DNA from: Coptis chinensis
Lineage: Eukaryota; Streptophyta; Magnoliopsida; Ranunculales; Ranunculaceae
Assembly (NCBI GenBank): GCA_015680905.1
Contig: CM027378.1
Span: 38,289,001-38,353,000 of the forward strand
Direction: 5' to 3'
Length of the DNA: 64,000 bases
Made by a program: the position numbers and the translations under genes. Of the stretch, positions 10,058 to 50,941 are shown in pieces. The stretch's first letter is position 1. Each line of letters starts with the position of its first letter. The notes under the pieces were generated by a model that saw nothing but the letters and a program-made list of their open reading frames with translations, had not been told where the DNA came from and made no database searches.

Positions 10058-10767
10058 TATCTGCGCACCCATTTATATTTCTTAAAAAAAAAGGGGAGTA
10101 AGGCAGTAGAATAGATGCTGCAATTGAGGCGTTGGAGTTCTGGGAGGAACTCACAATGATACACCATATCATAGTTACACCATATCACAATGGAGGAGCT
10201 AATTGAAAATTATATCGCATATCTCGACATCAAAAAGATTAAGGCAATCAAAGGGGTATCAATGGAGTATTGAAAGCAAATAATATGTTCTACTTATGAA
10301 AAGCAACCAAACAAAAATAGAAAAAGTCTTTCAAGACACAAAATGCACTCTAACAAATAAGTTAATAGTGAGGCCTAATATCTGAATCATAAGATATCAA
10401 GATCTATACAGTTAGGTAAGTACAGATCAATTTCATTTCAAACCACAGTGAAGCCCATGATATGAAAAGTATCAACGTATCATCCCATATTACACAACTA
10501 GCAATACATATGAGAAAGAGGTCAAGTACTCCTAGGGACCATGATTATCTTTGCTACTTCGCTGTTTCACCATATAGATAAAAGGAATGCTAGCAGGCAA
10601 CTCAAGTTGGGAGTGGCATAGAAGGTGTGAAGTATATGTTAATATTGAAACATTAAAGACACAAAGTAAGACATAATCAAACCTGATAAATAACCTGGAT
10701 AAATCATTAACTAGACTGATATATATGTCATTTATGGACTCCATTCAAGAAACTCATAGGGATGAGG
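10058..10767. other. spacer between the two direct-repeat copies
   Basis: AT-rich, without recognisable coding sequence on either strand. Confidence 0.3.
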
Positions 10768-11097
10768 TAGGTCATAGGAACTCCAAAGAACTCCAAGTCA
10801 TAGGAATATCATCACGCTGGGAACTGATTTTAATGATAACATATTTTGTCTTTCATTGCATCAGGTGTTGGATGCTATTCATTACGTCCTTCTCTATTAC
10901 GTTCCAGCGGAATCATACCTTAATGCAAGCTGAGTAAAATCAAGGTTAGTTCATTGCTATCGTCATAAGAGATTATAGTCTTTTTAAGCATTCGGTAATC
11001 CAATGCTGGTCCCGATTATTACTATACTTTAAACTGTTACTTTGCGATGTTGTCTCATAATTTTGCTTTTCGTGCAGCTTATCATCAAATTGTATAT
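10768..11097 (+). repeat. direct repeat, copy 2, upstream of Rep/helicase
   Basis: Second copy of the block at 9521-10057. Its end lies about 70 bases before the ATG at 11168, so this copy, or both, may overlap the promoter or leader of the Rep/helicase gene. Confidence 0.7.
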
Positions 11098-11167
11098 ACG
11101 CCAACATTAGTATTTTGTGTACTTATTTACCTAATACCCCAATCTTATCAAACTGTTTATAGAAACC

Positions 11168-14100
11168 ATGGACACCCAAGCATCATCATACATACATAAT
11201 GAAACTGTACAAGAGTTCATTCAGAACCAACGAGCGGCCCAACTTGAGGTTAGATGTCCTTTAAACAATTTTTTTCATGTACTGGCTTTCCTATTTATTC
11301 CCACGTTATTCGTTTTCTAATCTATACTCATACTTTTAACTTGAATGTATCTGTCAAAGGCCCTACGGATAGCTGTTTCTGGCACTGCTCCACTACACCA
11401 ACAGCGTGCACTACCCACACAATGGATTCTGATGTAACTATGGGAGACTCATCAACACAACACCGGTTATCTCATGAGGCTACAGTCCGCAGTGAATCAA
11501 ATAGCCAGTCAACTGTCAGTCTAGCAGGCCACTCTATGTCCACACGGAACATGCATTCGCTCCTTCAGTTAGGACCCTCTCGGAGTTCAATAGCTCAACG
11601 TGCACGTCGAGAGCGAGAGGAAGCCCTAAGAGTTTCAGCAACCCAAAGGGATCGCATATATCCTCCATCCCTAACTCACGGCCTCACAGTGGAAACAGCA
11701 GTACATTCTATCGATGCAACAAGTTTCACTACAACCACCCAACAAGCAGATAAAGGAAAGCGTATTGTAATTGCTAACACTATTCCACCCCAGCCGTACA
11801 TCAACTCAGAACCTCCTGGACCGTCATATGGTGGATGTTCTTCTGGTGCAACTCAGCATGACCACTTTCCACTCCCAACACGTAACTTCACCCCCGGTTT
11901 TCATCTTGGGTCATCTTCCTTGAGGAGCAACATGTAAGTACTATGTCCAAACTTAAATATTTCCGTAATGAACAATTATAAATTACTAAACTAATTGAAT
12001 ACTAATTGTTTTTTCCCTACCGAAATTAGCTCCACAAACAATTTGCCTCCAAACATTACTGAGCCGGATGTTCCCGCCCAGGGCGCTTTTAGGCCCGAGG
12101 AAATTTCTGAAGAAGCATCCGAATATTCTGACGAAGAATACTATGACATTGACGAACTTGAAAATCCAACCGAAACAATGCCTTTTATCCCGGTCGAGCG
12201 TCATTACCTTGGGGAACTAGATGTTCAATGTAAGTCTTGCTTCGCATTACATTGGAGCGCAGAGCAACTCTCCAGTTCAACAAAAAAAAATCTTTTATTC
12301 GGATCATGCTGTCTCCAAGGAAAAATAAAACTGCCCTCACTTGATCCACTTCCCCCTCCGCTTGAATCACTCTTCGAAGGTAACGATTGGCTTGTACGTG
12401 ATTTTTGGAAGAACATTCGGGGATATAATGCTTGCAATGCATTCACCAGTCTTGGCGTTAAAGCAAATGACCGAATCTTGAAAGGACGTGGACCAAAGTC
12501 GTTCACTATACATGGAGAGCTCTGCCATAAGATTGGATCACTTTTACCTGATGAACATGTTGACCCAAAATACACCCAGTTATACATTTATGATGCTAGC
12601 GCGGCTTTGGATTATCGACAACAACGCAATAAGCATTTACTCAGGGAGGTGCTAAGTATTGTACAAGGTGTTTTGGTACAGGCAAACGCGTGGTCAAAGT
12701 TTTTCAAAAATGCAAATGAGGTCTTAAGTTCAAGTGCATCGGCGGACAACAATATACCAGCCTTCATACAATACACTCTAGGAACGGATCGCCGCCGATA
12801 TAATCTCCCGGCCACTTCTGAAATCGCTGTGGTATTACCCGATGATGAGACAAAGTATGATATGTTACGAGACATCGTTATTCACTACAAAGAAGGTGGA
12901 CTAGAGAGGATAAGTGAATGCCATCCTGCTTATACACCTCTTCATTATGTACTTCTTTTTCCTAGAGGAGACCTTGGTTGGGCACCGGATTTGCGACAAT
13001 GGGATGTCAAGATCAATTGCCCAAGTGATGCCAGACTAACGCAAGCACAGTATTATTCATACCGTTTATTTGACCGTCCAACTGAATACTCTTCCATACT
13101 AAGGGGAGGCTCCCTCTACCAACAATGGATAGTTGATGCTTGGGCTGCCACTGAACAGAATCGCCTGCGCTATATTCGCCTGAATCAAGACAACATTCGT
13201 GAGGAAGTGTACAACGGTTTGACGGACATTGCAATAGACAGCCTGCCTCTCGATCAAGTTGGCCAGCGTTACATTCTCCCTTCGTCTCACACGGGTACCC
13301 CGAGACATATGTATGAGATCTACCAAGACTCAATGGCCATTACACAATACAACAAACACCCAGATGTATTCCTAACGAAAGAATAAAGAACCGAATTGGC
13401 GGAAATCATAAAAGCTCTCAAGCCACACCAAACTGCCTCTGACAGACCTGAGGTGGTTGCCCGTGTATTCGAAATGAAAAGGAAAGCAATAATGGAGGAG
13501 ATAAAAAATAACGGTGTGTTTGGCGAACAAGCTGCATCCGTCTACACTATCGAGTTCCAAAAATGAGGACTGCCACACATGCACGCACTCATCTTCCTCA
13601 AGCAACCTGATAAGATCCGTAACGCCAATCAAGTCAATAAGATTGTCTCTGCGGAGTTCCCAAACCCTATCTCAAAACCTAATCTTTTCGAGACAGTGAA
13701 GCAGTGTATGGTACACGGGCCATGTGGACCTAAAAACCCACAGGCCCCCTGCATGGAGAATGGTCGGTGTACAAAACATTACCCACGCGCTTTTACAGAT
13801 GAAACTACAATGGATCAAGTTGGATATCCAGTTTACCGAGATGAGGTGCGCGACTGCAAAGTTAATAACCGAGATGTTGTCCCCTACAACCCCCACTTAT
13901 CAGAGATGTTCAACTGCCATATAAATGTTGAAGTTTGTGCATCGGTTCGTGCAGTTAAATACATTCACAAATACATTTACAAAGGGCATGATAGGGCAAC
14001 TATGGTTATTGTTGGTACTGATGATGAAATCAAACAGTACATTGATGCACGGTATGTCGGGCCACCCGAAGCTGCATGGCGTCTTCTCAAGTTCCCTCTG

Positions 14101-16228
14101 CACAAAGAATTACCACACGTTGAAAGGCTGGCAGTTCATTTGGAAGGGATGCATCGAGTTGTTTACAATGCAAAGGAGTCAAGGGCTACAGTTCTCGCAA
14201 AAGCTAGAAATCAGAGATCAACTCTAACGGCTTACTTCAAATGTTGTGCCGAAGATCCGGGTGCCCGTAGATATACTTACCAGGAGTTCCCACAGTATTA
14301 TGTCTGGAAAAGAGATAAAAAGATTTGGAAACTAAGGGACCACGGTTATGCTATTGGGAGAATGTACTTTGCAAATCCAAATGCCGGAGAGCGCTTCTAC
14401 CTTCGCTTGCTACTGACTGCTGTTAGAGGACCAACATCATTTGAACATCTTTCAGACTTTATGGTTCAAAGCGGCTTTGAGCATGACACGTTCAAAGCAG
14501 CATGCGTTGCACGTGGCCTTCTCGAATCCGACGACGAGTGGAGAGAATGTCTACAAGAGGCATCGGTGATGAAGACCGGCTACCAACTCGCAGACCGATT
14601 CCAACGTAATCCTTTTGGAATGTTCCCCAACCAGTCCTGCAACACTATGGAATGAATTTTCTACGCATATTTGTGACGATCTGGCTCACATGATACGTTC
14701 CAAGTTTAACAACCAGGAGGGAATTGCAGTACGAAGGTCTTGAACAAGAGGCAAATGCAAATGTGGAACGCCTGAATGCTGAACAACTTCATGCCCACAC
14801 CGAGATAACAGATTCAGTGCAAAACAATATGGGAAAGACTTTCTTCCTAAATGGTGTAGCGGGGACAGGAAAAACATTCGTCTACAACACAATTGCTGCT
14901 ACTTGCCGCAGCCAAGTCCATATTGTCATCAATGTTGCATCGTCGGGAATAGCATCGCTCCTGCTGTCTGGTGGCAGGACCGCACACTCTACTTTTTGCC
15001 TCCCACTGGATATTATGGACAACACCTTCTGTGGGTTTTCAAAAAACTCCATACATGCAGAACTGTTCAAAGAAGTTAGCTTGATTATTTGGGATGAAGT
15101 CCCCATGCAGCACAGACACTGCGTCGAAGCCGTTGAAAGAACACTAAGGGATATCCGAGAAAATTCAAAGCCTTTCGGAGGAATTACTATGGTTCTAGGC
15201 GGAGATTTCAGGCAAACGTTTCCTATTGTACCAAAAGGCAGCAGAGAGCAATACGTCGGAGCATCAGTGAGAAGATCCCAGCTATGGACACACTTACAAG
15301 TCTTGCACTTGGTACATAACATGAGATTGGAGATGTCATAGCCTAATAATGCTAGCTTCGCAGATTACTTGATCAAGGTACTTTACAAATCAAAACCATC
15401 ATAAAAATTAAAGATTAAAAAGGTATGTTATTGACTCAAATTTCTCTGAATTTATTTTAGGTTGGCACGAATCCTTTAGATACTGTTCAGTTGCCAAGAG
15501 GGATACAAACCTGTGCTAACATAGGGGATCTTATTTCGTCAGTTTATCCAGATTTGAATGTGAGTGGGACGGCAACACCAATTTACTTGACTGAAAGAAC
15601 CATCCTAGCTGCTCGAAATGACGATGTCAGCGTCATTAACCGAGCTGCCCTGAATTTGTTCCCCGGGCAAGAGATTTCTTACTTAGCTGCAGATAAAGTT
15701 GTCAATGATATTACAAGCCCTTAAAACAACGGATCCACATACCCTACCGAGTTTTTAAATTCACTAGATCCCTCAAGCTTGCCACCGTTTAATCTCCAAC
15801 TGAAAACAGGATGCCCTATAATGTTGCTTAGGAATATTGCCCCAAGAGATGGGCTTTGCAATGGAACCCGTTTGATTGTATTACGCTGCGAAACTAGAGT
15901 CCTTGAAGCAATGATCATAACTGGAGCCAAGGCTGGAAATACTGTATTTATTCCGAGGATATCCCTAACGCCATCAACAACTGAAATGCCGTTTCAAATA
16001 TCGAGACGGCAATTTCCCGTTAGACTGGCCTTTGCAATGACAATCAACAAGTCTCAAGGACAATCAGTCAAGTATGTCGGCATCAACTTAGAAACCCCAG
16101 CATTTAGTCATGGCCAGCTCTATGTCGCACTATCTCGGTGCACGTCTTCAAAAAGAATTACTGTCCTACTACCACCCGATTCATCCAATTGCACCACCAA
16201 CATTGTATACCCTGAAGTGCTTTTGTAG
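11168..16228 (+). pseudogene. Helitron Rep/helicase (HUH-Y2 nuclease plus Pif1 helicase)
   Basis: A short first exon may run from ATG 11168 to 11248 (an alternative start is ATG 11422). The body is 11422-11933, an intron, then 12030-15386, an intron, and 15463-16228. The Rep domain shows the HUH motif (GLPHMHALIF, 13567-13596) and the two-tyrosine motif (KYIHKYIYKGHD, about 13957-13992). The helicase shows Walker A GVAGTGKT (14853), Walker B IIWDEVPM (about 15087), [10 protein letters not shown] (about 15201), [12 protein letters not shown] and QLYVALSRC. The protein would nick, unwind and rejoin DNA for rolling-circle transposition. Lesions: TAA at 13384 with a local frame slip, TGA at 13564 just before HUH, a frame change near 14620, another near 14715 with probable loss of linker sequence, TAG at 15339 and TAA at 15722. 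It is inactive as written. Confidence 0.95.
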
Positions 16229-23614: not shown

Positions 23615-24373
23615 CTCAGCACACAGGAACACAAGCCTGTTGAAGCAATTGTAAAAGCAAGGTAGATTTATGGTTTGTCTTGGTTATTATTATTACTATT
23701 ATTAATTTTTGGCAAACTCATGTCTCTAATGCTTCTTTTTTTGCAGTTAATACCCATTGTCGATTATTTTAGTGGGCGTTGGGGATGGACCTTGGGATAT
23801 GATGCAGGAATTTGACGACAATATTCCTGCTCGAGCTTTCGATAATTTCCAGGTAATTGCTAGCGGGCGACAATCACACCCCTTACTCTGTTTGATTGTA
23901 CTCCACGTCACATATTTTATGATCACAACCTTATATATCTCTCTTTCAGTTTGTGAATTTTACCGAAATTATGTCAACGAATATGCCTATATACAGAAAA
24001 TACACGGAGTTTGCTCTTACAGCTTTGATGGAATTTGCGGCCCAGTATAAAGCAACAGTAAACTTTAATATATTGGGGTAACAAGAGATGTCTTTCCTTT
24101 AAAGGTTTTGCTTTTAACCATCTAATTTTTTAAAGCATATTCCATATAAACATAACAACAATGCACTTACTCTAGAGCCATTTTTTAAAGCAGTTCTAGG
24201 AATGGGAAATTAGTAGAAAGGGTGCCTCTTTCACCACCGCTTTATAGTGCTGCTTCATTTAGCACAAATGAACCGTCCTGGTCCAGCAGTTTCCAGCATA
24301 GTGTGCCACCATATAATCCCAACCAACCTCTAGGGGCACAACTCCACCTGGAAGTTCTACATTCGATAACAAG
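23615..24373 (+). pseudogene. captured RGLG-type E3 ubiquitin ligase exons
   Basis: Four consecutive exons with GT-AG introns are recognisable: 23615-23661 (LSTQEHKPVEAIVKA), 23747-23852 ([20 protein letters not shown], then [10 protein letters not shown]), 23950-24077 (FVNFTEIMS, then [19 protein letters not shown]) and 24200-24373 (ERVPLSPPLYSAASFSTNEP). This is the copine/vWA-type domain end and linker of plant RING domain ligases of the RGLG family. The RING finger itself and the N-terminus are absent. A TAA stands just before YPLSII and a frame shift falls in the last exon. Intron retention shows DNA-level capture. It is not functional. Confidence 0.85.
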
Positions 24374-25109: not shown

Positions 25110-25520
25110 ATGTATTGTGAGTACTAACGAACAACAACACGGCGAAGAGTATGACAGAAAAACTACTGCAAGCAGGTTTCTTGATCCCCTTTTCTTCGGC
25201 AAATATCCACTTTCAATGCAAACCCTCATTGGTCAAAGACTACCAAAGATAACACCGAGATGTCCCAACGATTGGTGGGGTCGATGAACTTCATTGGCTT
25301 GAATCACTATACAATTTTATATGCAAGGAATGATAGGATTAGAATTAGGAAACTGATGCTGCGGGATGCTTCATCGATTCTCTTTGTTATTACAACTGTA
25401 AGATGCATGGCCTTCTCCTTCCTCCCCCACTTTGTTAGTTTGATAAAGCTCCATTGTGATACTGATTTCTATGTCTTCCATTATAGCTTCTCGCGGTGGT
25501 GTTGTGATTGGCAAAAAGGT
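25110..25520 (+). pseudogene. captured GH1 beta-glucosidase exons
   Basis: The sequence reads SRFLDPLFFGKYPLSMQTLI and then GQRLPKIT. After a shift near 25255 it continues EMSQRLVGSMNFIGLNHYTI and LYARNDRIRIRKLMLRDAS, ending at a GTAAGA donor near 25399. A short following exon gives SRGGVVIGKK (about 25487-25519). These are the WFLDPLFFG-YP and DF-G-NHYT segments of plant family 1 glycoside hydrolases. The catalytic Glu motifs (TFNEP, ITENG) are not in the fragment. It is a non-functional captured piece with introns, the most 3' host fragment I can identify in Helitron A. Confidence 0.75.
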
Positions 25521-26963
25521 ATGCTCTGTTATCTTCTTAGAGGGATACTATTTACATCGTAGTCGAGACGAAGTATAACAGTACAGATAAGTATATCTTT
25601 TATTTAGGCATGAATACTATTACTGGTAGTGTTTCCTGGCTCCTAAACATTCCCAACACAATTGTTCATTCGCCAGTCATGCTCAGACAAAGAATTCCTG
25701 TAAGAGAACTCCATCTTCTCCCTGGTATGTATTCTTCATCGACTGATTTTGGATTTCATTTAGGGTTCTAAGAATATACCATTAGTTGCTAATCCCTCAA
25801 ATATACTCATATTACTTTCTCCAACCGGTTGCTCTCATGTATAGCCCAACAATGTATTGTTTCTTGCTATACCTCCTCACATGTATTGGATGGTGTTACA
25901 TATGCAATTGATAAGGACTGTTTACGTTATGGTTCGAATCTGATCGATTAAAGCGGTTGTGATGGCTTCTAACACGACTCTAATAACTTTACTTGGGGTA
26001 TACAAGACAGATTTGATCTTCTAACCCGGAGAATGGCTATCAGTTTGCTAAAACTGCAAGATATAGTTACTCTGGATATGAAAAAGAAACTTTTGTACAA
26101 AGACTTCATTTTATAAGCAAATGAAAAGTTCTTGAGTTTTGTTGTAACAGATTGATCTAGCTTGCCTGCCTAGGAGGCTTTGCCAATGTAATGTGTTTAA
26201 TCTTTTCTATTTATTTACGTTTATAATCCCTTAATTTAGTTTCATTATTTAATTTGGATTTGCTCTTTATCGATTTTCCAAAGTTGTCCTCAAATGGTTC
26301 GCTAGCTCACGATTGATTTCATAAGTTGTTTGTTGGTCATTTCCAAATAACATATGTCGTATATGCTAATGTTTGCAAATCATATTGACACAGGCTATTT
26401 CTTTCACGAGAGTAAATTCCCACATAGGCCACGCATTTGAAAATACAAGACTAATGGCACAACTAATATAATAAGCACATCCTTTTTTTTTCAAGTCTCG
26501 GCAAATTAATTTATTTCTTTTTTCTTAATAAGCTAGGTGCATTTGATGCTGAATACATAATCATTGGATTTGCCAACATAAATTTAGGCTATCATAACAG
26601 CGACATAGCCTTTGTATTGTTCTTCTTTTTTGTTCTTTTTTAATTTTGCAAGATTTTGTTATGCTTCTTTTGTACCACCGCAATGTGTGTGGCTGTCTTT
26701 CTGTATGTTTTTGTATTAGCCTCCTATCAATAGTGAGTTAAATGTTAGTGATTCAAATTACTTAATCCAAACCTTTTATCGTCTTTGCCGCTACTTATTA
26801 CAAACTTGCCAGCGAAGTACTATCAAACATGAAATTTGATTTTTTTGGTATATGCTCTCACTAATTACTCATTTGATTTCCTTGAATAAATTGAGCACCA
26901 ACTTTTAGTAAGTCAATTCTGTTTTCAATTAATACATACTATGCAAATGCATTCAATATAATT
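25521..26963. other. 3' region of Helitron A, no gene seen
   Basis: AT-rich, with scattered short ORFs and no family resemblance on either strand. Confidence 0.35.
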
Positions 26964-26982
26964 AACCCTAAACCCTAAACCC
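26964..26982 (+). repeat. interstitial telomere-like repeat
   Basis: TAACCCTAAACCCTAAACCC contains about two and a half units of the plant telomere sequence CCCTAAA. It lies about ten bases upstream of the Helitron A terminal hairpin. Confidence 0.8.
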
Positions 26983-26992
26983 GAATAACAAA

Positions 26993-27021
26993 CCGTGCCA
27001 TACGGCACGGGTTATACCTAG
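26993..27021 (+). other. Helitron A 3' terminus (hairpin plus CTAG)
   Basis: Perfect 7-bp stem CCGTGCC/GGCACGG with a four-base loop, a spacer of seven bases, then CTAG and a following T. This is the diagnostic Helitron 3' end. The next base starts another Helitron. Confidence 0.9.
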
Positions 27022-27923
27022 TCTATATAATAAAACAACTTGGTTTTTAAGCACTTTGTGTAAAGCTTGCATCCAACGGCTAAAAGTTTATATAATTAGT
27101 ACATCTGACGATTAATAGTACAATTAAGAGTTAATAATAAATTGATTTTAATTAGAAAACAAAGACCAAGTTGATTTTAATTAGTAAACAAAGACTTTAA
27201 AAAAAAAACAACAACAACAACAACAACCCTTCGTTTGAAACAAACGTACAGGAGACTCCATCACCAGAAACTCAACAAGGGTGATTCTTCTCCATTGCTC
27301 CAAGTTCTCTCCACCGCTCCAAGCTTCTTCAACAAGTGGTAGTGATGTGATTTCACATATTAAATTGTATATTAATGTGTATACCTTTAACACTCAATCT
27401 TCTCTGCATATTGCCTATACCTAAAACATTTTTCTCTCTGTCTCGATGTATTCTCTCATCTCTAAGTTTAGCGAGGGCTTCCTTCCTCTCAACGAAATAA
27501 TTATATTATATTTTTTTCTACTGATTTCATATGAAAAAATTGCTTTTAGTTAAAAATTGATATTTTGTTCTACTTTCATATTACTTAACTTATCGAACTA
27601 GGTATTTAGTTACTTTTTCTTTGAATGGTTGCTTTGCTAATAATGTAGGCAGCCGCACATAATTATAGAATAAGTTGGATTGTGATTTGTAATTGATTTC
27701 GGCGTTATTATATGAACTATGTATCTACGCACCTCACATAGTCCCTATTACTTACAGTTTAACTTAGCATGGTATGGATGATGATTCCCATGGATTCTTT
27801 GCATTCCGTAAACATAGGAGTGAAGGTTGGCAATGAGTGTATTTCTATTAAGTTTCATAGTTTCCATAAAAGGTGCAATTGTGTAATTTTTGAACCTTTG
27901 TTCACACTTCATAAGAACAAAGT
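27022..27923. other. 5' part of Helitron B, no gene seen
   Basis: After the 5' terminus comes an AT-rich stretch with an (AAC)n run at 27209-27226. No conserved coding sequence was found. Confidence 0.35.
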
Positions 27924-29181
27924 TATAACACCCCGTTTATTTTCTTTATTTTTCCCTATTTATTAAGATTTAAAAAGTAATAATAATATTAAAAAGAAAA
28001 AAAAAAGGATAAAGATAAAATAAGATAAGATAAAAACGTGGGAGAGTTAGAGGGGTTTGGTTACAACCGAACTCTCCATCTTTGTTAGTTTTTTTTTTGG
28101 GTTTTTGAAATACAAGAGAAAAACAGAGAGACGTACAAAAGCGAAAAAAAAAACAGAGAGAAATAGTTATTGCTGGAGAGTGCTTGAAAGAGAAAGGGGT
28201 GGAGGAAAACAACACTTTGATGTCAGTTTTTGAGTTCGCCGGATTTCGAGTTTGTTACGTAAACAAACGTTTTCGCTTTTCAATTAATTCCGGTGAGTAG
28301 TCTAAACTTTTTATTTAAATATGTATTTGATTGATAATCATATGATTTTATTAGTTATTTATTTATTTTATTTATTGGAACCTTGTGATGAAAATATTGA
28401 TTTGTTCAAAAAGATTTAAATGGCATTCTGAGTTGCAAACTAAAGTTTCACTTTGGTTAGGCATAACTATTCATGGGTATGGTTTCTGTGGTCAAGGATG
28501 GCCAACATAATAGACCAACGTATTTGATTTTCTAGACCAAAGTATTGTTATAGCAACTGGCGTCAAGCTTCTTTTTATTTTTTGATTTCATGTGACCCTT
28601 ATACTCGATCACTCCACAGTCTGAGAAACTCCAACGTAAAGTGTTCTCGGATTTGAGCTAGTAAAGCACTATAAGTTTGAGAATGCATAAACTTTTAATA
28701 TTTATAAACGTAGAGATCACTACTGGTTCTTCTGCCGTTTGAGTTGTCAATACAATTTTCATTAGGAAACAGGCATCTACTCCCAGAGGTCACCTTCTAT
28801 TAACTTTGGTTTAAAAGGGTTACAAATATAATAGTTAATTTAGGCGAAGATGGTTCTTGTAGATATTGAACCCCTTTTTCATTATCATCCATGGGAATAG
28901 CCACTAAAAGCCTTGGTCTTAATCTTACAAAAGAGATAACAGATACAACGAACTAGATTAATTAGAATCAATACTTGTTACTAAAAGCTGTCCCATATAC
29001 AATGAGAAGTAGACGGTGATATGCACTTTTCTTATTACCTTGAACTGTTATGCACTTAGATTAGATAATTAGGTTCTATTGTTGTTGAATGAGTTTAGCT
29101 ACTGGCGCAAGTTATCTTTTTGATATATATGTGGATGGGTCGATCTAGATGGTACAGTCGGTATTAAACCCTTATACCAAT

Positions 29182-29613
29182 CATAGTACAAAATATCCCG
29201 ATATATCGCGATATTTGGGGATATCTATCCAGATTTCAGAAAAATATATATAAATATCACGATATGTTAAGAGATATATACAACTGTAAATATCGGTGAT
29301 ATTTTGACGATATTTGCGATATTTGTGATATTTGGGGATATTTTACGATATTTTGAGATATTTAGTGATATTTTGTACATATAACAATTTTATTTAATAT
29401 TTACCATTATATTTTAAATAAATATAAATAATGTATCATGATATATCAAGAAATATCCACAATATCCACGATATTTGTCGATATTTTGGATATATCCACG
29501 ATATTTACATGTGAAACAATGTCAAATATCCCCAAAGAGAGGGATATATCCACGATACATATCCAGAAATTGAGTATCGATAAATACCCATATCCTGATA
29601 TTTTGTACTATGG
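29182..29613. mobile_element. MITE with internal CGATATTT repeats
   Basis: Terminal inverted repeats start CATAGTACAAAATATC and end GATATTTTGTACTATG. Direct TACCAAT flanks it on both sides (29175-29181 and 29614-29620). Inside, the motif GATATTT or its complement recurs many times on both strands. A 7- to 8-bp duplication would fit a hAT-type origin, but the superfamily is uncertain. Confidence 0.8.
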
Positions 29614-29689
29614 TACCAATTGACTTGCAGTACTTTAGATATTCTCTTTTAGATGTCAGAAAGTATAAGCTTAGCGATGGTATGATTTT

Positions 29690-30330
29690 CGAGCTCAATT
29701 TTGGTTTAGTTAGAGTTTGAACTAGTTTTGTTTGAAAACACGAAAAAGTAAGGTCTGGAAGTCTGCTTTTCAACCCAATCGACCTCGTCGCATTCCGAGG
29801 TTTGTGGATATGGTTACGGTGTTCGGAAGTTAGCACATCAGAATTTTCTGACTGCAGAAATCAGGATCTATGCCTATTTTCGAACCACGTTTTCACATAG
29901 TTAGGTTCCGATTCAAACTCTCTCGCCAAAACATGAAAGAGTGAGTTTTCTGAGTCTTCTTTCCAACCCAGTTGGACTCGACGCATTCCAAGGTCTATAG
30001 AGACAGCTATGATGTCGGAAAGTTTGGTTGACTGAAAACAGTGCGTCAGAATTCCGTTTCTGTGCACTGTGTTCGAGTCCAGTTTTCAAATAGTTATAAT
30101 GAGAGTTAGTATTTTTGTAAAACATGAAAGAGTAATTTCTGAGAGTCTTCTTTTCAAAGCAAAAATCCTTGTAGCGTTTGGATACCTATGGAATGAGTTG
30201 TGCCATTCGGAAGATAGTCCGTCAGAAATCTAGCTTGCTGAAATTAGGATTTTTACCGTTTTCAACCTAAGTTTTCTCCGAGATAGAATGACATTGGGAC
30301 TTCGAGTTCTACATGAAAAAGTAGGTCTAC
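29690..30330 (+). repeat. about 190-bp diverged tandem repeats in the LTR
   Basis: The phrase AAAACATGAAAGAGT or close variants recurs near 29735, 29928, 30119 and 30308, a spacing of about 190 bases. Each is followed by a CTTTTCAA or CTTTCCAA and a GTCAGAAT-like phrase. Copies are strongly diverged. Confidence 0.65.
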
Positions 30331-31322
30331 ATATCCTACTTTCTAAATAATTGAGTTACATGTCTTTTGGATGAATGTAGGAAAAAATATAGCATTGACA
30401 AGTTGGCTAGAAAACCTACTGGGTTATCTTTCTTGTGCATGAACCTGTTTTGGAAAATATGTCTAGTAATGAACTAAGAGTCTCTTAAACTCTTTTTAGG
30501 TGTTTTATATAGTGTTTGTAGTCTACTTTTAGACTGTTGTTTTATTTGGAACCGACATGGTTCATAAGATCATGTTTTTTTAGAATCAAAAGTAGAAAAA
30601 TATCCATTTATGAGTTTTTGGATTTAAAGGTTCATAGTGTATCTCTAGATATGAAACTTTATGTATATGATTGTAGGAGTATTTGAAACTTATTGTATGT
30701 GATTCTATATAGTATAAATTGTGGTTTTACTTAAAGGTACATACAAGAATGTTGATATTTATTGGTTAAGAGCTACGTAAGGCTTTATTCTACTCTTGAA
30801 AGATTGGATACGTAGGCAGCCTTATGTATAGGTGCCTTCACTATACTATATACTATATATTAGTTATTAGTTATTGTAATAACTATATGTGAACAATGTT
30901 AGTACTTAATTGTGTACGTGATTGTGGTTGTTTAAAATGTATTCACGAGACATTTAACTAATGCGTTATTCCTGATTGAACCTTTTGATATCTATGATTT
31001 ATATAATTGATAATGAGGTGAGTTGATTAGTTATTGTGTTTGGAATATATAGTAATGAATTATTGTTTGAGACGATGTTTGTTTGGTAATGAAAATATTA
31101 TAATAAATGAGAACTCTTGAGTGTTAAAATCCGGTGTAAAAGTGTCCGATGAAATTTTAATGTGTCGCCCACATCTTTAGATCTCTCCACACCTCTTTGA
31201 TGAAAAGAAATGAAATGAAATGTTTATGACTAATGATGTCATGTGAAAAGCCGCCTTAGAGAGGAACTAAGGCATTCGCCTTGCGGGTTGGCTATATTCC
31301 TTGAATGTACGGGAATGTAGGT

Positions 31323-31545
31323 GGGTATTCCTTGAATGTGGTGGGAATGACCCAAGATATTCATTGAATGTGTCATGAATGACATGTTAGTGTTATGATG
31401 GGTATTCCTTGAATGTGGCAGGAATGACCCAAGGTATTCATTGAATGTGTCATAAATGACCTGTTAGTGTTATGACGGGTATTCCTTAAATGTGGCGGGA
31501 ATGACCTAAGGTATTCATTGAATGTGCCATGAATGACCTGATATT
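31323..31545 (+). repeat. 77-bp tandem repeats, three copies
   Basis: GGGTATTCCTTGAATGTGG starts at 31323, 31400 and 31477, an exact 77-base spacing. Copies differ by a few substitutions. Confidence 0.9.
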
Positions 31546-31816
31546 TTGTCATGCCCAAAGGAGGCTTGGTGATTTTGTGTATGAGAAGCCCAGAGATGGC
31601 TATGACTCACAAGTTACTAGTTTACAAGATGAAAATATGTTTCCTGGAGGCGATATTCCCGCTTGGGACATATGTCTTGTAGTGGTACTCGGTGTGAGTG
31701 AGGCACATGGATATGTGTGATTTGGCAAATATGTGTAGTGAAAATCGTGGAGTAGGAACTAAAGGTTTGGCTGTGTTTTTTAATAAATGAGTCAACGAGA
31801 TAATTAATAACCAAAG

Positions 31817-32290
31817 TAAAATATTGATTTTACGTGTGATGGAATTATTACATATGATGTATATGATATCTTATGATAAATGTTTATGTGGTTTATGTGA
31901 GTTGATACTCACGAGGGATGAATGTACTCCCTGGTTGTGACTTTTTCCTCGTTCTCATAAGTAGACGAGTGATATTAAAGTAAAACATTGATTTTACATG
32001 TGACTGAGTTATGGTATATGAATATTTATGTATTATAATATACATGATTTCTTACAAGGAAATGTATACGTGGTTTGTGTGAGTTGATACTCACGAGGGA
32101 TGAATGTACTCCCTAGTTGTGATATATTCCCTCGTTCTCATAAGTAGACGAGTGGTTTTTAAGAAAAATATTGGCTTTAAGTATGAGTGAGTTGTTGGAT
32201 AATAGTCGTGATATATTATGATAGGATGCATATAATTTCTTACGAAGGAATATGAATATGGTTAGCGTGATATGATGGATATAGTGGTGT
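31817..32290 (+). repeat. about 182-bp tandem repeats in the LTR
   Basis: GAGTTGATACTCACGAGGGA occurs at 31899 and 32081, each followed by TCTCATAAGTAGACGAGTG. A third, degraded copy of the leading part follows to about 32290. Confidence 0.8.
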
Positions 32291-33154
32291 GATATGAATG
32301 TTAGTTAATATTGGCGATATATTATGCAAGATTATATATACCCAAGATGGTTACAGTGAGAGTAAAATAGATATATACTATAAATAATTACATTTGGGAA
32401 ATCTAACTTTGTTTTGCAGGAGGGTAGGACTTACTAACTTTTTATGCAGAGATGTTGTCCTACCCTAAGATGACGTGCTGGCTTAAAGGTAAAGTATATC
32501 AAACTCATATTTAAATAAGTTATCATATGTGTATGTAATAAGTGGAATGTAAGTGCGCGGAAATTATATTGTGAGTTATTTTGGAAAGTGAGAATGATGA
32601 ATATTGTTATATGAGGTTTTTTTTTGGAAATGTATATTGGGGGTTGAAATATTACTTGGGAAGAAACTACGTACCGTGTTGAGAAAACGGAACTAACTTG
32701 TCTTCCAAGTTGACATGATTGAATAGTATATTTCTTTATTCGAAAGATATGAACGTATTGCTATTTTATATTTAGTCTTACTCATACTAGCAAATTCAAT
32801 TTGCTGACCCATGTTTGCTTTGTTTTGCAACGTGGGTGTGTTCTTGGAAACATAGATGGTGGAGTGCAGTGGATGAGGACACGTGATTTGGAGTTGCTCT
32901 TAGAGTCTTTTGGTGTAAGTTTTTCTTAAGTGTACGGTTTTGTTTTGAAACAGATGTAATAGAGTGGTTTAGTAAATTCTTGAATTTGTACATTAAGAGT
33001 TGTTCTTTTGGTTTTAATTTGATCTCATATTTTAACATCGTGGTTGATAATGGGTTATTAGGGTTTTGTTTCATCCTGGATTTTTAGAAGATGGAATAGG
33101 GTGTGGATAATTCCCTATTTTTAATTTTCTAGAACTTTGGGGTATGACAAAAGT

Positions 33155-33629
33155 TCTATTAGGAAAAATTGTTTTGTTGTTCAAATTTTTGGTTATTGTT
33201 CTGTTATGTAGTTCTTTGTTCCTAACAATTACACCTATTGAGAGTGATTATATTTTTACATCAAGTCATTAACAGAAAAAACCGATATGATAATATTCCT
33301 GGAGGCTTTTCAGAGCATATATTGTGTCCATACCAAGCAAATTGAGATGATTGTGCACTATGTTTCATTCTATAAATGGTTATCATGTAGAAACATCATC
33401 TTTTGTCACAAAGTTTACTTCTAGCCTTCATTAGGCTGAGTAGAAAACTAATATTTCTTGTTTTAAGCTGTTCATTGATCTTTAACATTTAGTTATCTTC
33501 TACTGAAAGTGTCTTCTTTAACTTTTTGCAGTCATATTTATTTTGTTTTTTGCTCAACAAGCCATTGATTATCAATATTTTGTAGTCTGCCATGTTAAGT
33601 TCTCGTAAAAATTTGATTGTTTTCCATTT
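33155..33629. other. Helitron B sequence right of the solo LTR
   Basis: AT-rich and without recognisable coding. It leads into the exon-like block at 33640. Confidence 0.3.
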
Positions 33630-33639
33630 TCTCCTCAGC

Positions 33640-34330
33640 ATGGATAAGACACAAACTACTTCTACCAGTGAACGTGCTGCATTTGCTGAGGTATTTTTTC
33701 AATTTTTTTTTCTTTTATTCTTACATGAATTGTAAAACTCCACAATCTATACAATGTTTGTTTTATGCTTACATTAATATTGTTAATTTTTTTTATGTAT
33801 TTAACCTTTCACCAATTACAAAATAAAGGTTATGAACAAATTGTTACATGAAAACCATCAAGTCCAATCAGCTCATGAGGTTGTCGAGATACCTTCACGG
33901 TCAACTCTACTTAGTGTTACTCCTTCTATGCGCAAGTTGGCTCAACACACAAGAAGATAGAGAGCTCATAAGTGCTAATTCGTCAACCTCAGAAATACCT
34001 TCACATCAAGTCCAATCAGCTCATGAGGTAGTAGTCACACCTCCACAGTCAACTATTACAATTATTCTGACCAAATTATTGTTAAGGTATATATGTATTA
34101 TATTGCCATATATACAATGTTTGTTTTCTGTCGTACGTTAATTTTGTGATGTACAGGTTATAAACAAACAATTGCATGAGAACCACCAAGTCCAATTAGC
34201 TCAAGAGATTGTCGTGACACCTCTACAGTTAACTCTTGGAGTCAGTCCCACCAATGCTTTCATACCTTTGCAACTTTCTAGGCACAAGTTGACCCAACAA
34301 TATAATTTGCAATCTACTAGAGTTTTTTCA
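33640..34330 (+). pseudogene. triplicated exon-like block of unknown host gene
   Basis: A first exon-like piece (MDKTQTTSTSERAAFAE, from 33641) is followed by three diverged copies of one exon. Copy 1 from about 33829 reads VMNKLLHENHQVQSAHEVV. Copy 2, partial, near 33990-34060 includes HQVQSAHEVVVTP. Copy 3 from about 34156 is VINKQLHENHQVQLAQEIVV. Acceptor-like AG sites precede copies 1 and 3. Copy 1 continues with LLSVTPSMRKLAQH. The gene is not recognised. Stops between copies make it non-functional. The arrangement suggests exon duplication within the captured sequence or a repeat-bearing host gene. Confidence 0.45.
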
Positions 34331-35628
34331 TCTTGCTTAAGGGTACTCTAGGTAGTTAGGTTATGCCAAAGCCTACCTAAGCTTCTAAAGCTCTGCCTAT
34401 ACCAAATCTGCTCTTAATAGTTATCATAACACATTACATCTTAGATCATCATCTTAGATCTACCCCTTTACGTTCATGCAAATAATTTACATATAAAAAA
34501 TATTTTCTAATGGAAATAGAATGTGTTTTCATCCAATTCTTATGCGAGTCTTTAATTCTTAGTTTGATTGTCACCTTATTACCTTCTTCTTAGCAATTCA
34601 CTTATGCTACCCCGTCGACTTATACCGACTGGCGACTACAATCCACCATATTCCTTGAGAAAGCTAGCTAGAGTATTTTTTATTTTTTTATTTTTTTTTT
34701 TGTATCAATCAACTTTACAATCTAGAATGGAGCCTCTAAATTAGTGTATGATTGAACTTATCATAAACTTAAAATAAGTGTTTTAGCAGGTTATCTCACA
34801 CAAGGAATGGACTCAATTTTTAATACTTTGCATGACTTTGAGATAATGTAATTCAAAATGTTATTAGTTCAATAGTACCATGTATTTACATTGTGGAACG
34901 TCCAAGATAGGAACACCAATTCATCTCAAAATTTCTATTGTACATTAGACACCAAAATATTTGTATTGGATGCTCACACTCTTTCTATCAAAGGTGTATG
35001 CACTAGAAAGTTAAGGAGTATGCATGATCAGTGAAGACTAAGCACTACTATTTTTGTGGGGTATAATTTGAACATTGATTAACTTTGGCCATTATTTAAT
35101 TGGTTGTGTGATGATGCAAGGAATCAGATGAATGTGAAATGAAGCCTCTCTATTTTTCAACTTCAAAATTACGAATGAATAGCATTGATCAATAGAGAAA
35201 CCTATCCATACTTACCGTTAATCTATGATGCTTATTAGTTAGATTTGCATATGGTTTCATGTGCCATCATAACTAATGTGGGTGCTTACTGTATATTTTT
35301 TATTCTGTGTAGTTTGAATTGCTTGCTAATAACGATTTGGAATTTTCGTTAAGTTATTGTCATAGTTCATAGTGTTGCTATGAAATTCTTTTCATTGTCT
35401 TCTTAGACATGTTTTGAGTTGTTGTATGCTTTGAAAAATGAATTTATAAATAACTAAACTGGCACATTGTCGTGTGAAGTTATTTAGAATTCTTATGACA
35501 CCATACATGTTCATTTCAAATGTAAAAAAAGATAGGGAAACCATGCCAATTTTTTTTAAAATAAATTGGTGTAAAATGGTGTTTAAACATACGTTTGATT
35601 CAATAAATTCACCCATAATAACAATCGA
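34331..35628. other. 3' part of Helitron B, no gene seen
   Basis: AT-rich sequence ending in CACCCATAATAACAATCGAG just before the terminal hairpin. No coding signal. Confidence 0.3.
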
Positions 35629-35655
35629 GTGGCATCGCCACGGGTTAAATTCTAG
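35629..35655 (+). other. Helitron B 3' terminus
   Basis: GTGGC-ATC-GCCAC hairpin (35629-35641), ten-base spacer, CTAG (35652-35655), then T. The preceding ATTCACCCATAAT is shared with the end of Helitron C. Confidence 0.85.
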
Positions 35656-38600
35656 TATATAATAAAGCAGCTTGGTTTTTTATGTGTTTATATCAAGCAG
35701 TCAGGGAGAAAATAGTTTTGGGTGATCCTACAGCCATGAACCACTTTCTTTTAAGAGTCCTACTTATTAAAAATTCCCAAAAGAAAAACTGTAAATAAAA
35801 AAGAAAAAGTTCGCCAAAAGAAAAAGTGGAAAACCCTTTCTTTCTTTCACTTTTTCCTATTCCACACGAGTTCGCCAACCACAGAGCACATAGTTGAATA
35901 GCAATTTTAGCTAGAGTGTTGTGACACTATGTTCAATTTTCTAAATTTATTTGTATTAGTGTTCTAGAGTGAACATGCATTGAAATTTCTACTAACCATT
36001 TTATCATGTAGCTTTATGGCCGGTTTAGTTCCAGTATAACTCTATGTCTCTATATATTTAATTTTACAAAAGTTGAAAAAATGAATTGGAGGTACAGCTG
36101 ACATAATTTTATCAGTATTTTACTTTTCTAATGAATCTGTTGACTACTGAATTGGTTGGATTAGTTTTCTAGAAGTCCCATATATACTCCATTGAAAAAC
36201 CAGCTAGGTGAATATGGCATATTCCTCCAAGTATTAGCCTGCCTAACACGAACATTTAACTCGAACACAAACTACAATAACAAAGGTCAGCTTTCAAATT
36301 CGACAAGTACCATGTCATCATGAGTATCACCACTATCTTTTCTCTACTTAATATGTATCCTTTCTAGAGACATTTTTTAGAGAATTATTGTTAGGCACTT
36401 ATATGTTCTTCTTCCTACTTATTTTGGTATTTCACGTAAATTTTTCTTCTTCGTTCCTAATGATTTTGGTACTTGCATAAATTGATCTATTCAAATTCAA
36501 ATTATTGTAGGCAACCAATATGCACAACTATAAAATTCAGTATGTTCCCTTTTGTTTTGGTAAATCTTTGATGATCTATGATTTTGAACTTCCAGTTTTA
36601 ATGATTTTGACATTAGATATTATTTTAGATTTTTATTACTCATCACTGTCTTTGCTTCAGGACCTTTGAACGTATAGTGTTAGGCACGTTAGTACTTGAA
36701 GCCAGCACATGCATATGACTATGTACATTGATGTACCATAGTGCTCAAGCAATCACTTGATATTTGCTTTCCCAAGAGTCTTGACTTCGACTATTTGAAA
36801 TTGTTTGATAATGGTTACATACTATAGTTGCAATTATCTGAGATTTTCTTATTAGTTGTAAATTAGTTTGTTGTAAACATTATCTGTTTAGTTGTAAATC
36901 CTTTCCAACACATTTTTTGTCAATATCACTTGGATTCCATGTTCCTAAAAAACGTGTGTTTATTTCTCTAGGCCTCAAGTATAACATCAACTCATACCAT
37001 TTTTTGTCTCTAAACGTTGGGCATCTACCCTTAATTCTTATTTTGGATTGTTGCCTTATTTTGTTAAGCTCTCTTTCCTTTAACATTAACTATTGTGTGC
37101 AGGTGATCAAATCATTGTATTGCGGCCACAATGCAAGACCACAATGCCAATGTCCTGAGTAATATGTGTTGTTTGATATTTCTAATATAAATTTCAAATG
37201 CTTATATTGCAGTAATAGTAATTTTCATTTAGATATGAAGTCTTTATACTAACTTTAATTTTGTGGATTTTTTTTTGTTTGTTTATCGCTCTTTCCAATC
37301 AGGTTCCCTTCAATCTAATCATTCAGGTTCATTCAAGTATTTCATGTTCAAGCTCTTTGATATACTGTTACGATTAAAACTAATGTGTTTGGTGATGAAT
37401 GAAATGTGTGAGAACTGCTGCTCTTTCAAGTAAATTCAGTAGATACTATTTTATGTACATCTTTTTATAGATTATGTAGATTCTTTTACACATGGGAATC
37501 TATCTATTATGTATCTATCTATATCCTTACAAATCTCTAGATATCTTACGAGCTATATATAAAGTATGTCATTGTGCATCATCATGTGTGATCAGTGATG
37601 AGTACATATAGCATTTCTAGCAAGTCCATCTGTTGCTCCATTACATCCTTTGAAATTATGTATCGTTTAGTTTTTGGTTTGTTATAGTTAAAATTATAGC
37701 TAGAATATTTTATTGAGTCATGGCTATAACTTTCTTAATACATATATTTTTGGTCAAATTCGATGAGAGATTTCTGAAGGCGTAAGCAGAATCCAAGTTA
37801 GAATATAAGAACTTAGTGTTTTTCAGCTTGACAGTTTATATTTTTTGCTAGATTTCTGTTGGAAAGAGGTTTGGTTTATACAAAAAACCATCAATAAACC
37901 AATTATTAAAGTAATTAAGAAAAAGGTTCATTTTCAATATAGTTTGAAGGTTTTGAGTGTTGTATCATTGATTTCTAATATATAGTTCGTTTTTGTTACA
38001 GACACTTGAGTGATAGATTTTTATGAAAGAAAACCAAATGCACACATCATGCCAATTCTGCCAACAATGACAACCTTATTTTTTGGTCAATATTGAGACA
38101 ATAACTATATTTTGTTATAATAGATATTATGAAACCTAGAAGATGCTCCTGTTGAATGTATTTTTTCTTTTATTTTCTTTCTCACATATTTAGTTCTTAC
38201 ATTTTCTAAAAGTGTTGTATGTGTCAGAATATGTTCTCATGTTTTAATCAAAATGTTAACTCTATTTTTCCAAGTTTTTTCTATTGAATTAGGTGGATAT
38301 GTTTTAGTTAGTTACTTATGGGATTTATGGGATCCATGAGACTAATTGTTGCAAGTGAAAAATCCACATTATCAATATTGAAACTGAAGGTTTGTACATG
38401 CTCTGTCGCCGTTAAACTTAAAAAAATGATTGCATGACCTCAAAGATATAGCTTACTAACTGTTGAGTCATTGGTTTTATTAGAATGATCATGCATCATG
38501 TTTATTCTTAGATCGTGAGAGGCATGTTGTTTATTCTTGGGTTGAGGTTTCGCAACTGTGTGAAATACATTAGTCTGTTGCAATAACATGGGATTTGAAG

Positions 38601-38814
38601 CACTTGTGGGTGCATCACTTATGGGCATATTGTCGTGTGAAATTGAGTATGCATGACGCACAATATTTCAATTCAATTAAATGTAAAAAAGTAGTGGAAA
38701 CACTCTTGATTTCTCTCCAATAAAATTGGGGCTAAAATAATAAATTGTCGCGGTTTTATTTTGCTAGATTCACCCATAATGACTCGAGTGGCATAGCTAC
38801 GGTTTAAATTCTAG
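35656..38814 (+). mobile_element. Helitron C, non-autonomous
   Basis: It starts TATATAATAAAGCAGCTTGG, clearly related to the Helitron B start but lacking the leading TC. It ends GTGGC-ATA-GCTAC (38789-38801, one G:T pair), then CTAG at 38811-38814. No transposition gene is present. A short exon-like piece at 37103-37162 (VIKSLYCGHNARPQCQCPE then stop) follows a TGTGCAG acceptor-like site and is unidentified. The remainder is AT-rich without visible genes. Confidence 0.75.
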
Positions 38815-39160
38815 TCTATATAACAAAGAAGGGTGGAGTGGGTGGACAAATTCCACCTCACAAGGTGATACCTAGTTGTGCCACCCCTAATCCTAGCAAC
38901 TCAAATGTTTTTCTGGGGTGAGTTAACAAGTTTTTTTGAGTGAGTTTAAAAAATTTTCTCACCTCACCCACCCCACCCAAAAAAGGCCTGGACTATTTTT
39001 GGGTTGAATTTTTATGGGTTGTTGCGCTCTGGAAACATGAGTAGAGGGGATCTTGGCGTCGGGGGCACCGGGCGTATGATTTGTACCATACAGGGGGCGG
39101 ATGCACGTCGGGGCGCTGAAGGCACACATATTTGTACCGTACGGCACGGGCAAATACTAG
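38815..39160 (+). mobile_element. Helitron D, 346-bp minimal Helitron
   Basis: It begins TCTATATAACAAAG directly after the CTAG of C. It ends GTACCGTACGGCACGGG, six bases and CTAG (39157-39160), followed by T. The end hairpin is related to that of Helitron A (both contain ACGGCACGGG). It is too short to code for anything and resembles other small non-autonomous Helitrons. Confidence 0.8.
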
Positions 39161-48314: not shown

Positions 48315-49652
48315 AATGGATCATTCATCTTCTTCTGATTCATCTTCTGATTCTTCATCGAGCTCGAGCTCGAGCTCTTCAAATAATAACATTGCAATTA
48401 AAACTAGTAAATTAGTGGCTATTGCTTTACCTTTGGTTCGACATCGTCTAGGTTTATTGTGTTAGCAAGAAGCGGGCGAAGTCTTCTTATAAACCACATG
48501 GCGGTTCGAAGAAAGGAAGAAAATGCAAGAATCGTCAGTACAAGGCAACACTGGCTCGTGTAAATGCTAACTACTTTGGGGCAAATCCTATATTTCGTGA
48601 CTACGACTTTCGACACCGATTTCGTATAGGTGAGTCATTGTTTACTCGTATTTTCAATCATCTTAACCATAATGTACCATATTTTCAACAAAAAGTTAAT
48701 AATGCGGGTAAGTTTGGGATTAACCCAAAAATCAAAATAATTGCTGCTATACGAATGCTTGCTTATGTACCTCTAGCTAATCTAGTAGATGACATGTTAC
48801 ATGTTGCTGAGCCAACTGTTCATTAATGCATGTGCTATTTCTGTGATGGAATTATTAGAATTTTTAGAGGTGAATACTTGCGCAAACCAAATGCTGCAGA
48901 TATTCAGCATTTTCTTGAATAGTCTGAGGAACGCGGATGGCCTGGAATGCTAGGAAGCATTGATTGCATACACTGGCAATGGAAGAATTGCCCATCCGCA
49001 TGGTAAGGGTCTCACACTGGCCATATGCATAAACCAACAATGATTTTGGAGGCTTTGCTTCTCGTGACACGTGGATTTGGCATGCTTTTTTTGGAATGGC
49101 GGGTTCTCACAATGATCTTAATGTGCTTGACCGCTCACCAATATTTGATGATATAGTCAATGATGAAGTTATTCCTTGTTACATTGTGAATGGCCATCAT
49201 TATGATATGGGCTATTACTTGGTTGACGGTATTTATCCTAATTATGTCACCTTGATTCAAACGATTGCTAAACCAACTGTTACACAAGACAAATATTTTG
49301 CAAAGAAGCAAGAAGCTGCTAGAAAAGACATAGAGCGGGTGTTTGGTATATTGAAGTCGCGTTGGGCTATTTTAGCGAATCCGTGCAGGTTATGGTATTT
49401 GGAGACCATGGCTTATGAGGGCTTGCATCATTTTACACAATTTGATTGTGGAAGATGAACACTAAATGGATATCCCGCTTATATTACTGAGTATGAAGTG
49501 CCACGTAAAAAGGTACATCTGAAGATCAACGCCACTTTGTTCTATCTCGTTGGGCATTTGGCGTCGAGAGGGTTCGTTCAAAAGTTGTTTATGATAGATT
49601 GAAGAATGACTTGGTCGAGCATTTGTGGAGTAGGCATGGGCGGCGTGATTAA
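48315..49652 (+). pseudogene. PIF/Harbinger DDE transposase
   Basis: It starts MDHSSSSDSSSD with a poly-Ser stretch encoded by GCTCGAGCTC repeats. The helix-rich N-terminal half includes NPIFRDYDFRHRFRIGESLF and GINPKIKIIAAIRMLAY. The catalytic core has SIDCIHWQW (first Asp), GMAGSHNDLNVLDRSPIF (second Asp) and RKDIERVFGILKSRW (Glu), the DDE pattern of HARBI1-like nucleases. The end LVEHLWSRHGRRD with TAA at 49650 is typical. Lesions: frame breaks before 48545, stops at 48824, 48920 and near 49003, and one lost T near 49055. Inactive as written. Confidence 0.9.
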
Positions 49653-49983
49653 ACTTGATTTCTATTTCTATTTGCACTTCATTTGGACTTTATGTTTATT
49701 TATCGTTTCAATTTCTATGTATTTGTGTTCCAAGTTTATTTCTATGTATTTGTGGTTTTATGAAAGGATTTGTGTATATAAGAATTTTGAAAATACAAAG
49801 TAGAATCTGCCGAATTTTTTTTAGAATGATAAAAAGTATAAACTTTAAATTAAGGTAATTTAACTCAAATTAAAAGAAAATATTCAATTAAAGTACATTC
49901 TAATTAAAATCAAAATACAAACTCAATTAAAGTACATCATAAATTAAAAGACAAATTAAATGACATACAAACTCAAATTTAGA

Positions 49984-50941
49984 CTATGCACTACTTTGAC
50001 TACTACCAGTGATATTGCCAAGTCGATTCTTCATTTTTTGTAAAATTTCTGCCTTTTTGAGTTGCCAAATTTCGCGCTCATCTTCGGGTAATCCTTCTAA
50101 TTTTATTCCTAGTATTTTCGCATCATTTTCATCTTCTCGAACTCGGAGCGCATCTTTCTTCAATTGAAGTTTTTCTTTTTGGATTTGGAGCTTCCAATTT
50201 ATAACATTCTTTGGTGGTTTTAGAAAGTTCCACTATAGAATCATCAAGTTTCTTAGCGGATTCCTCCACTTTAGAATCACCTTCTTCTCTTTTCTTCTTT
50301 CTGTCCAACAGGCCTATCCTCAAGCCCATCAACTTGGTGTGGATCATAATCTATTGGTTGAGTTGTCGCAGTTGATATTGGAACTGATAAACCTTCTTCC
50401 CCACTGTTTGACTTCGACTTTTTGGTGGGTCGCAAATCATTTCTCAACTGTAGCCTCTTCCATTTGGGTGAGTCTTTCACCATATTATAGCATTGCATCC
50501 ACTTCCAAACCCCATTATGCATCCCATATGCACTTATTGCTTCCTCAATGTTAACTTACCAATTAAGAAAAAACTAAATTAGAATTGAAAAATGTATTTG
50601 TGAATCAAAATAATAAATAAAAAGTAAATACTTACAATCATATTGTCATTATAGCCACTTGGAGGAGATGCTTGAATCTTAGAAATAATAGCATTGAACT
50701 TGTTGATATTAGCTTGAATGAGAGTCCAACGGTGTTTTATGCCCATCAAGTTGTATTCGATCATTCTTCCTAGATTTGCATAAAATGCATTTAGAATCCT
50801 ACTCCAAAATTCGTTTGACTTTTGCTCATTTCCTACTACACCATCTTGACTAACTTGTAGCCAACTATTGGTGAGAGCAACATCTTCTTCTTGTATCCAT
50901 GAAGCCCCTCTAGATTTTGCTTTTGGTTATTCACTAGCCAT
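49984..50941 (-). pseudogene. PIF/Harbinger ORF1, Myb/SANT-like protein
   Basis: Read on minus from ATG at 50941: MASE, a TAA, then KSRGASWIQEEDVALTNSWL, a trihelix/SANT-type start shared with PIF ORF1 proteins. It continues with GRMIEYNLMGIKHRWTLIQA and NKFNAIISKIQASPPSGYND. After a break comes NGVWKWMQCYNMVKDSPKWK, then a basic linker and a helical C-terminus ending near 49984. The known role of ORF1 is as DNA-binding partner of the transposase. Stops and frame changes (near 50925, about 50560 and about 50290) disable it. Confidence 0.8.

Follow-up and report, generated by a model that had tools for sequence, protein, structure and literature searches.

A row of abutting Helitron ends in Coptis chinensis: three bounded elements behind the 3' end of a fourth

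The DNA considered here is a stretch of 64,000 nucleotides (nt) from Coptis chinensis (assembly GCA_015680905.1, contig CM027378.1, positions 38,289,001 to 38,353,000 of the forward strand), referred to below as the window, within which there is no N. Between positions 26993 and 39160 it carries an array of Helitron ends joined tail to head, which consists of the 3' end of one element, here called A, followed by three bounded elements, B, C and D. The features of the array, together with coding remnants upstream of it, are the following.

11254..16228, plus strand: Helitron Rep/helicase coding remnants in several open reading frames (ORFs), recognised by Pfam profile matches and possibly part of A
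26993..27021, plus strand: 3' end of A, with stem CCGTGCC (26993-26999), loop ATAC, stem GGCACGG (27004-27010), 7 nt and CTAG (27018-27021)
27022..35655, plus strand: element B, 8,634 base pairs (bp), with 5' end TCTATATAATAAAACAACTTGG, hairpin GTGGC-ATC-GCCAC (35629-35641) and CTAG (35652-35655)
27925..33149, no strand assigned: insert of ~5.2 kb in B, with AAAGTT at 27919-27924 and 33150-33155 and ends ATAACACCCC and GGGGTATGACA
35656..38814, plus strand: element C, with 5' end TATATAATAAAGCAGCTTGG lacking TC, hairpin GTGGC-ATA-GCTAC (38788-38800) and CTAG (38811-38814)
38815..39160, plus strand: element D, 346 bp, with 5' end TCTATATAACAAAG and 3' end CCGTACGGCACGGGCAAATACTAG, followed by T
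39129-39134 and 39151-39156: outer stem of D, TATTTG/CAAATA, enclosing an inner stem CCGT/ACGG

Direct reading and a script both place the four CTAG 3' ends at 27021, 35655, 38814 and 39160, each of them a CTRR terminus as in canonical Helitrons. The bases directly behind them are TCTATATAATAAAAC, TATATAATAAAGC, TCTATATAACAAAG and TTTACCAC, respectively. At the first three, a Helitron-type 5' end abuts the CTAG with no spacer, and a hairpin or hairpin remnant precedes each. CTAG, which is palindromic and therefore equally frequent on both strands, occurs at 160 sites in the window, three of which have (TC)?TATATAAYAAA directly behind them on the plus strand. The core TATATAAYAAA is itself found three times on the two strands of the window, always directly behind an array CTAG; a set of 100 first-order Markov sequences had a mean of 0.43 copies of this core and not a single junction. 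The abutting junctions are a genuine feature. An initial annotation of this DNA had described four joined Helitrons, with a Helitron start adjoining the CTAG at 27021, 35655 and 38814. The adjacency is present at all three positions, but the second junction has no TC: canonical CTAG|TC is seen at A/B and C/D, and the script finds a 5' TC terminus in B and D but not in C. The last 3' end of that annotation, at 39160, stands, with CTAG and a hairpin in place and a T directly following at 39161. As for the number of elements, B, C and D are bounded on both sides, whereas A is represented by its 3' end, its 5' end not having been found (see below).

The 3' stems comprise 7 bp in A, 5 bp in B, 5 bp including one G-T pair in C, and a 4-bp inner plus a 6-bp outer stem in D. 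Measured against the hairpin expected about 10-12 nt before a Helitron 3' end, those of A (11 nt) and B (14 nt) are clear, that of C (14 nt) is weak, and that of D is rearranged, with its inner stem at 11 nt. The corresponding fold energies are -10.1 (A), -4.5 (B), -1.1 (C) and -6.1 (D) kcal/mol. Among 209 CTRRT sites on the plus strand, two of which passed the hairpin scan, the 3' end of A has the top score. A relaxed scan was passed by six of the 71 CTAGT sites on both strands (27021, 39160, 47620, 38875, 42592 and 60099); the ends of B and C failed its 6-bp requirement because their stems are only 5 bp long. By itself, the hairpin criterion is weak evidence, since the relaxed scan passes four CTAGT sites other than the array ends and misses B and C.

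By eye, an outer stem ATAAC/GTTAT surrounds the hairpin of A (26985-27015), and one of TAAC/GTTA is found around that of B (35619-35647). The outer stem of D (39129-39156, folded) matches that of A in place and in its pairing, although the letters differ. The 3' structure may extend beyond the hairpin usual in Helitrons. D also contains a second hairpin, GGTGGA/TCCACC, with a CTAG|T following 14 nt later at 38875 (region 38815-38875); this may be one more 3' end, just 61 nt into D, or else chance. A short interstitial telomere-type repeat of CCCTAAA units (26966-26982) lies less than 60 nt from the 3' end of A.

The 5' cores are alike in B, C and D. At the 3' side, B and C match at 86.5% over 52 nt (BLAST) and are unlike A; the ends of A and D match at 74% over 31 nt, 4 nt of which lie beyond the end, and would appear to be akin. 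In a strict alignment judged against 100 Markov sequences, B and C exceed all of these at both ends: the 5' match spans 25 nt and scores 40, where the null maximum is 36, and the 3' match spans 52 nt and scores 65, where it is 37. Away from the ends, the right part of B, taken without the last 220 nt, scored 36 against C, a value that four of the 100 controls attained (null maximum 39); for the left part of B, taken without the first 60 nt, 20 of 100 controls attained its score. A blastn comparison of B and C at word size 4 returned 21 pieces, the majority of them no better than chance; E values were 1e-11 and 2e-4 for the two ends and 0.002 for three pieces, one of them in the last 200 nt. 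A further comparison of the interiors, in which gaps were costed too cheaply, is superseded by the strict alignment: there none of 60 controls came up to the right part of B while the end was included, but 50 of 60 reached its score once the end was removed, while the score of the left part was reached by 50 of 60 with the end and 55 of 60 without it. The last 3 kb of A aligned with C at chance level (42 of 60 controls). These comparisons make B and C look like distinct elements whose ends are related, and which are perhaps relatives of long standing. As their interiors have no significant similarity, a fresh rolling-circle concatemer is not what the array represents.

The Rep/helicase stretch upstream gave Pfam matches to Helitron_like_N (2.9e-23), PIF1 (8.5e-74) and Pif1_2B (3.1e-18) within 11995-16228, and none for its first (11254-11937) and middle (13567-14655) ORFs. 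A protein search with one helicase ORF yielded 1,704 matches, and among the 120 matches listed those named by organism come from eudicots (Camellia, Diospyros, Dionaea, Rhododendron, Papaver and others), in keeping with plant DNA. Just upstream of these ORFs there is a direct repeat of 266 bp at 87% (9815-10080 and 10850-11115). Weak RPA-like matches on the same strand, to Rep_fac-A_C at 7521-7772 (E 1.3e-4) and to DUF223 at 4757-5152 (E 0.002), both fall below the curated cut-off. There are also gene fragments: one of copine at 23751-24050 (E 1.3e-8), a possible beta-glucosidase scrap at 25185-25562 (best E 0.044) and, on the minus strand, one that is VDE-like at 8720-9115 (E 8e-5, below cut-off). 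Plant Helitrons are described as often carrying RepHel, RPA and captured fragments (PMC4683698, PMC3288121). A may be a large autonomous Helitron that includes the same-strand Rep/helicase remnants at 11-16 kb. Its 5' end was not found when the 422 ATC sites in 1-27000 were scored from TC on against TCTATATAAYAAAG, the six best tying at 10/14. Position 4181 (A|TCTATATAG) is one of those six, and at 26953 the preceding base is T; neither is put forward as the 5' end. The hairpin and CTRRT scan passed no site lying between 16228 and 27021, but it also overlooked the 3' ends of the other three elements. The string TCTATC, the footprint to be expected had B gone into C behind TCTA, is present seven times upstream of 27021 (739, 5765, 8690, 9921, 11707, 20240 and 22821) and proves nothing.

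Element B had been annotated as bounded, and its ends hold, but its size is largely due to the nested insert flanked by AAAGTT, without which it measures ~3.4 kb. The ratio of observed to expected CpG is 0.80 in the insert against 0.63 in the left and 0.41 in the right remainder of B, and 77-bp tandem repeats run from 31322 to 31552. The insert is perhaps a solo long terminal repeat on the minus strand, which is a guess. A diverged repeat unit in the right part of B (33824-34237) encodes QSAHEV-like peptides and is perhaps a captured gene piece; the single ORF scanned in that region (33836-34141) had no Pfam match.

The array, with B, C and D as at least three separate non-autonomous Helitrons beside the 3' end of A, was probably built from right to left, by serial insertion at the 5' boundary of the resident element. 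D would have come first, at a host A|T, and every later element would have entered at the 5' edge of whichever was then leftmost. The AT target at each step would be made up of the A preceding the resident and the T that opens its TC, and the CTAG of the newcomer would thereby be set against the TC of the resident. The order of arrival would then be D, C, B, A, with an extra step at B/C, where either TC was lost from C or B entered a few bases inside its end. An order with D first and A last is favoured because the 5' edge of a resident offers a canonical A|T, while the 3' edge needs G|T. Of the models considered, serial insertion at the 5' edge alone would keep AT targeting at both A/B and C/D, provided that the base to the left of A is an A. 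Such insertion had been put forward in the initial annotation; it would account for A|T at these two junctions but not, without the extra step, for B/C, and the model was already in print.

Indeed, both the mechanism and the arrangement have been published, and the array is a longer case of a known pattern. For maize, Du et al. (2008) describe a CTAG|TC junction between two dissimilar adjacent Helitrons, No.1 and No.2, and insertion at an A|T composed of a host A and a resident T is one of the two models given (PMC2267711). As in the array, the left CTAG passes directly into the right TC, and dissimilar interiors lead to the same reasoning against a multimer; unlike the array, there are two elements, both bounded, with presence and absence scored by PCR across inbred lines (PMC2267711). 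Three Helitrons in tandem are reported from Metarhizium acridum, where repeated 5'-end insertion or rolling-circle replication was proposed in 2016, the difference being that these are three elements and fungal non-canonical Helitrons; the same article cites cases from bat, Drosophila, rice and maize in which Helitrons, or elements derived from them, are inserted in tandem (PMC5148889). The bat arrays, as cited in PMC5876387, PMC5148889 and PMC2267711, share the perfect head-to-tail junctions but are read as tandem repeats of one element, whereas the interiors of B and C differ; those articles also cite Helitron tandem arrays in plant centromeres. Multiple-terminus Helitrons of maize likewise have several 3' ends per stretch, derived from nested Helitrons, but are described as moving as one multi-copy composite (PMC3288121). 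No report of four dissimilar Helitrons in a row was found among the listed titles and abstract openings of the open-access literature.

The expectation under random targeting was estimated by a crude formula, with an assumed 1e4-1e5 Helitrons in a genome of 0.5-1 Gb and the AT density of the window, 98 per kb. With these inputs, some 0.5 to 100 abutting pairs are predicted per genome, but 1e-9 to 1e-4 chains of four. This suggests that random insertion alone is a poor explanation of the four-element chain, and the gap between pairs and chains may point to the 5' ends of residents attracting newcomers, or to composites formed beforehand.

Several observations count against serial insertion at the 5' edge, or against parts of it, and the rarity of such chains is one of them if insertion is random. 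The absence of TC at B/C leaves C without a canonical 5' terminus and makes the fit imperfect. The likeness of A and D went unreported by BLAST of the pieces against the window, the stretch being too short, and when the last 3 kb of A was aligned with D the score was reached by 47 of 60 Markov controls. A looser alignment of B and C brings out weak similarity over ~300 nt at the 3' side and ~215 nt at the 5' side, above 100 mononucleotide shuffles. Among the maize lines reported in PMC2267711, the left element exists alone and the right element alone was not found, which would seem to favour the opposite order or later excision; these presence and absence data are no clean support for insertion at the 5' edge. 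Nor do the CpG ratios (0.42 in C and 0.62 in D, beside those of B) give an age order or mark D as the oldest, and the hairpin energies across the four elements are not monotone. Dating by hairpin energy and CpG depletion was rejected, as neither is monotone and their use is weak and confined to comparisons within an end type.

The apparent rarity of serial insertion at one base, under the assumed copy numbers, lends weight to a composite, in which two or more elements were already linked when they moved here as a unit with several 3' termini, the linking having taken place elsewhere or through end-bypass transposition. Fewer local insertions would be needed, the missing TC of C fits a disused internal end, and multiple-terminus Helitrons arising from nested copies are described in maize (PMC3288121) and Fusarium (PMC5148889). 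Nevertheless, adjacency must still arise once, all four CTAG are intact and the stems of A and B are uninterrupted; a composite seems unlikely. Growth in the opposite direction, from left to right, would have each newcomer insert at the G|T between a resident CTAG and a host T. This is one of the two readings of the maize pair and agrees with the maize lines that have the left element only (PMC2267711), and D, at 0.62 close to the 0.63 of left B, does not look older. It demands a non-AT target three times, however, and in both end types the hairpin of the left member is the more stable one (that of B compared with C, that of A compared with D), although this is weak evidence; growth towards the right is rated as distinctly improbable.

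A rolling-circle multimer, that is, a concatemer produced by read-through replication and then inserted, would account for junctions of this kind, which are known to be perfect and head to tail in Helraiser circles (PMC4778049), and bat and plant tandem arrays have been taken as support for rolling-circle replication (PMC5876387). B and C moreover have both ends in common, plus the weak further similarity. A concatemer, however, repeats one element, and the units here are not copies of one another: the strict alignment finds no significant similarity between the B and C interiors, and D is only 346 bp long. The initial annotation had considered a multimer the less likely course, citing different end types, and this is borne out: in the strict alignment B and C are significantly similar at their ends alone, and at the 3' side they are unlike A and D. 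Both the strict and the looser alignment tell against a recent multimer, and the chances of this explanation are slim; B and C may yet be an ancient dimer whose interiors have since diverged or been replaced. Repetitive ends can also mislead assemblers, and a scaffold join or collapse might have juxtaposed Helitron ends, but the window has no N and the error would have had to produce exact joins three times over, at different ends; an assembly artefact is very unlikely indeed.

Returning to serial insertion at the 5' edge, a tentative and rather doubtful extension is that the resident end acts as a landing pad. Transposase would bind and nick the resident's own A|TC, and the incoming CTAG would join the exposed TC, giving site-directed growth to the left. 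Among 701 Helraiser retranspositions, no clustering near donor sites is reported (PMC4778049), so any attraction would have to come from the end of the resident itself. A review of 2025 cites preferential insertion near other Helitrons (PMC12477314). With a shared 5' core, different 3' ends and no spacer, the array would be a good test bed for distinguishing chance targeting from a draw to the resident cleavage site. Attraction to resident ends, if true, would help to explain both the clustering of plant Helitrons and the origin of composite gene-carrying Helitrons.

Searches of microbial and viral collections have little bearing on plant DNA: three pattern scans of viral contigs (IMG/VR) gave no matches, as did a scan of prokaryote genomes (GTDB) with the B/C 3' end pattern only. 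In a protein-guided scan of IMG/VR, eight stretches fitted the pattern, none of which encoded a relative.

Elsewhere in the window, a transposase with a Plant_tran domain (PF04827; 49033-49458, E 6e-47) lies within 48452-50926. It is PIF/Harbinger-like, and a possible Myb-like ORF lies on the opposite strand to it in the same interval. There is also a direct repeat of ~155 bp at 88.8%, whose two copies lie 1.4 kb apart (61943-62097 and 63364-63518) and each contain TCTTTATAAYGAAAGGAG on the minus strand.

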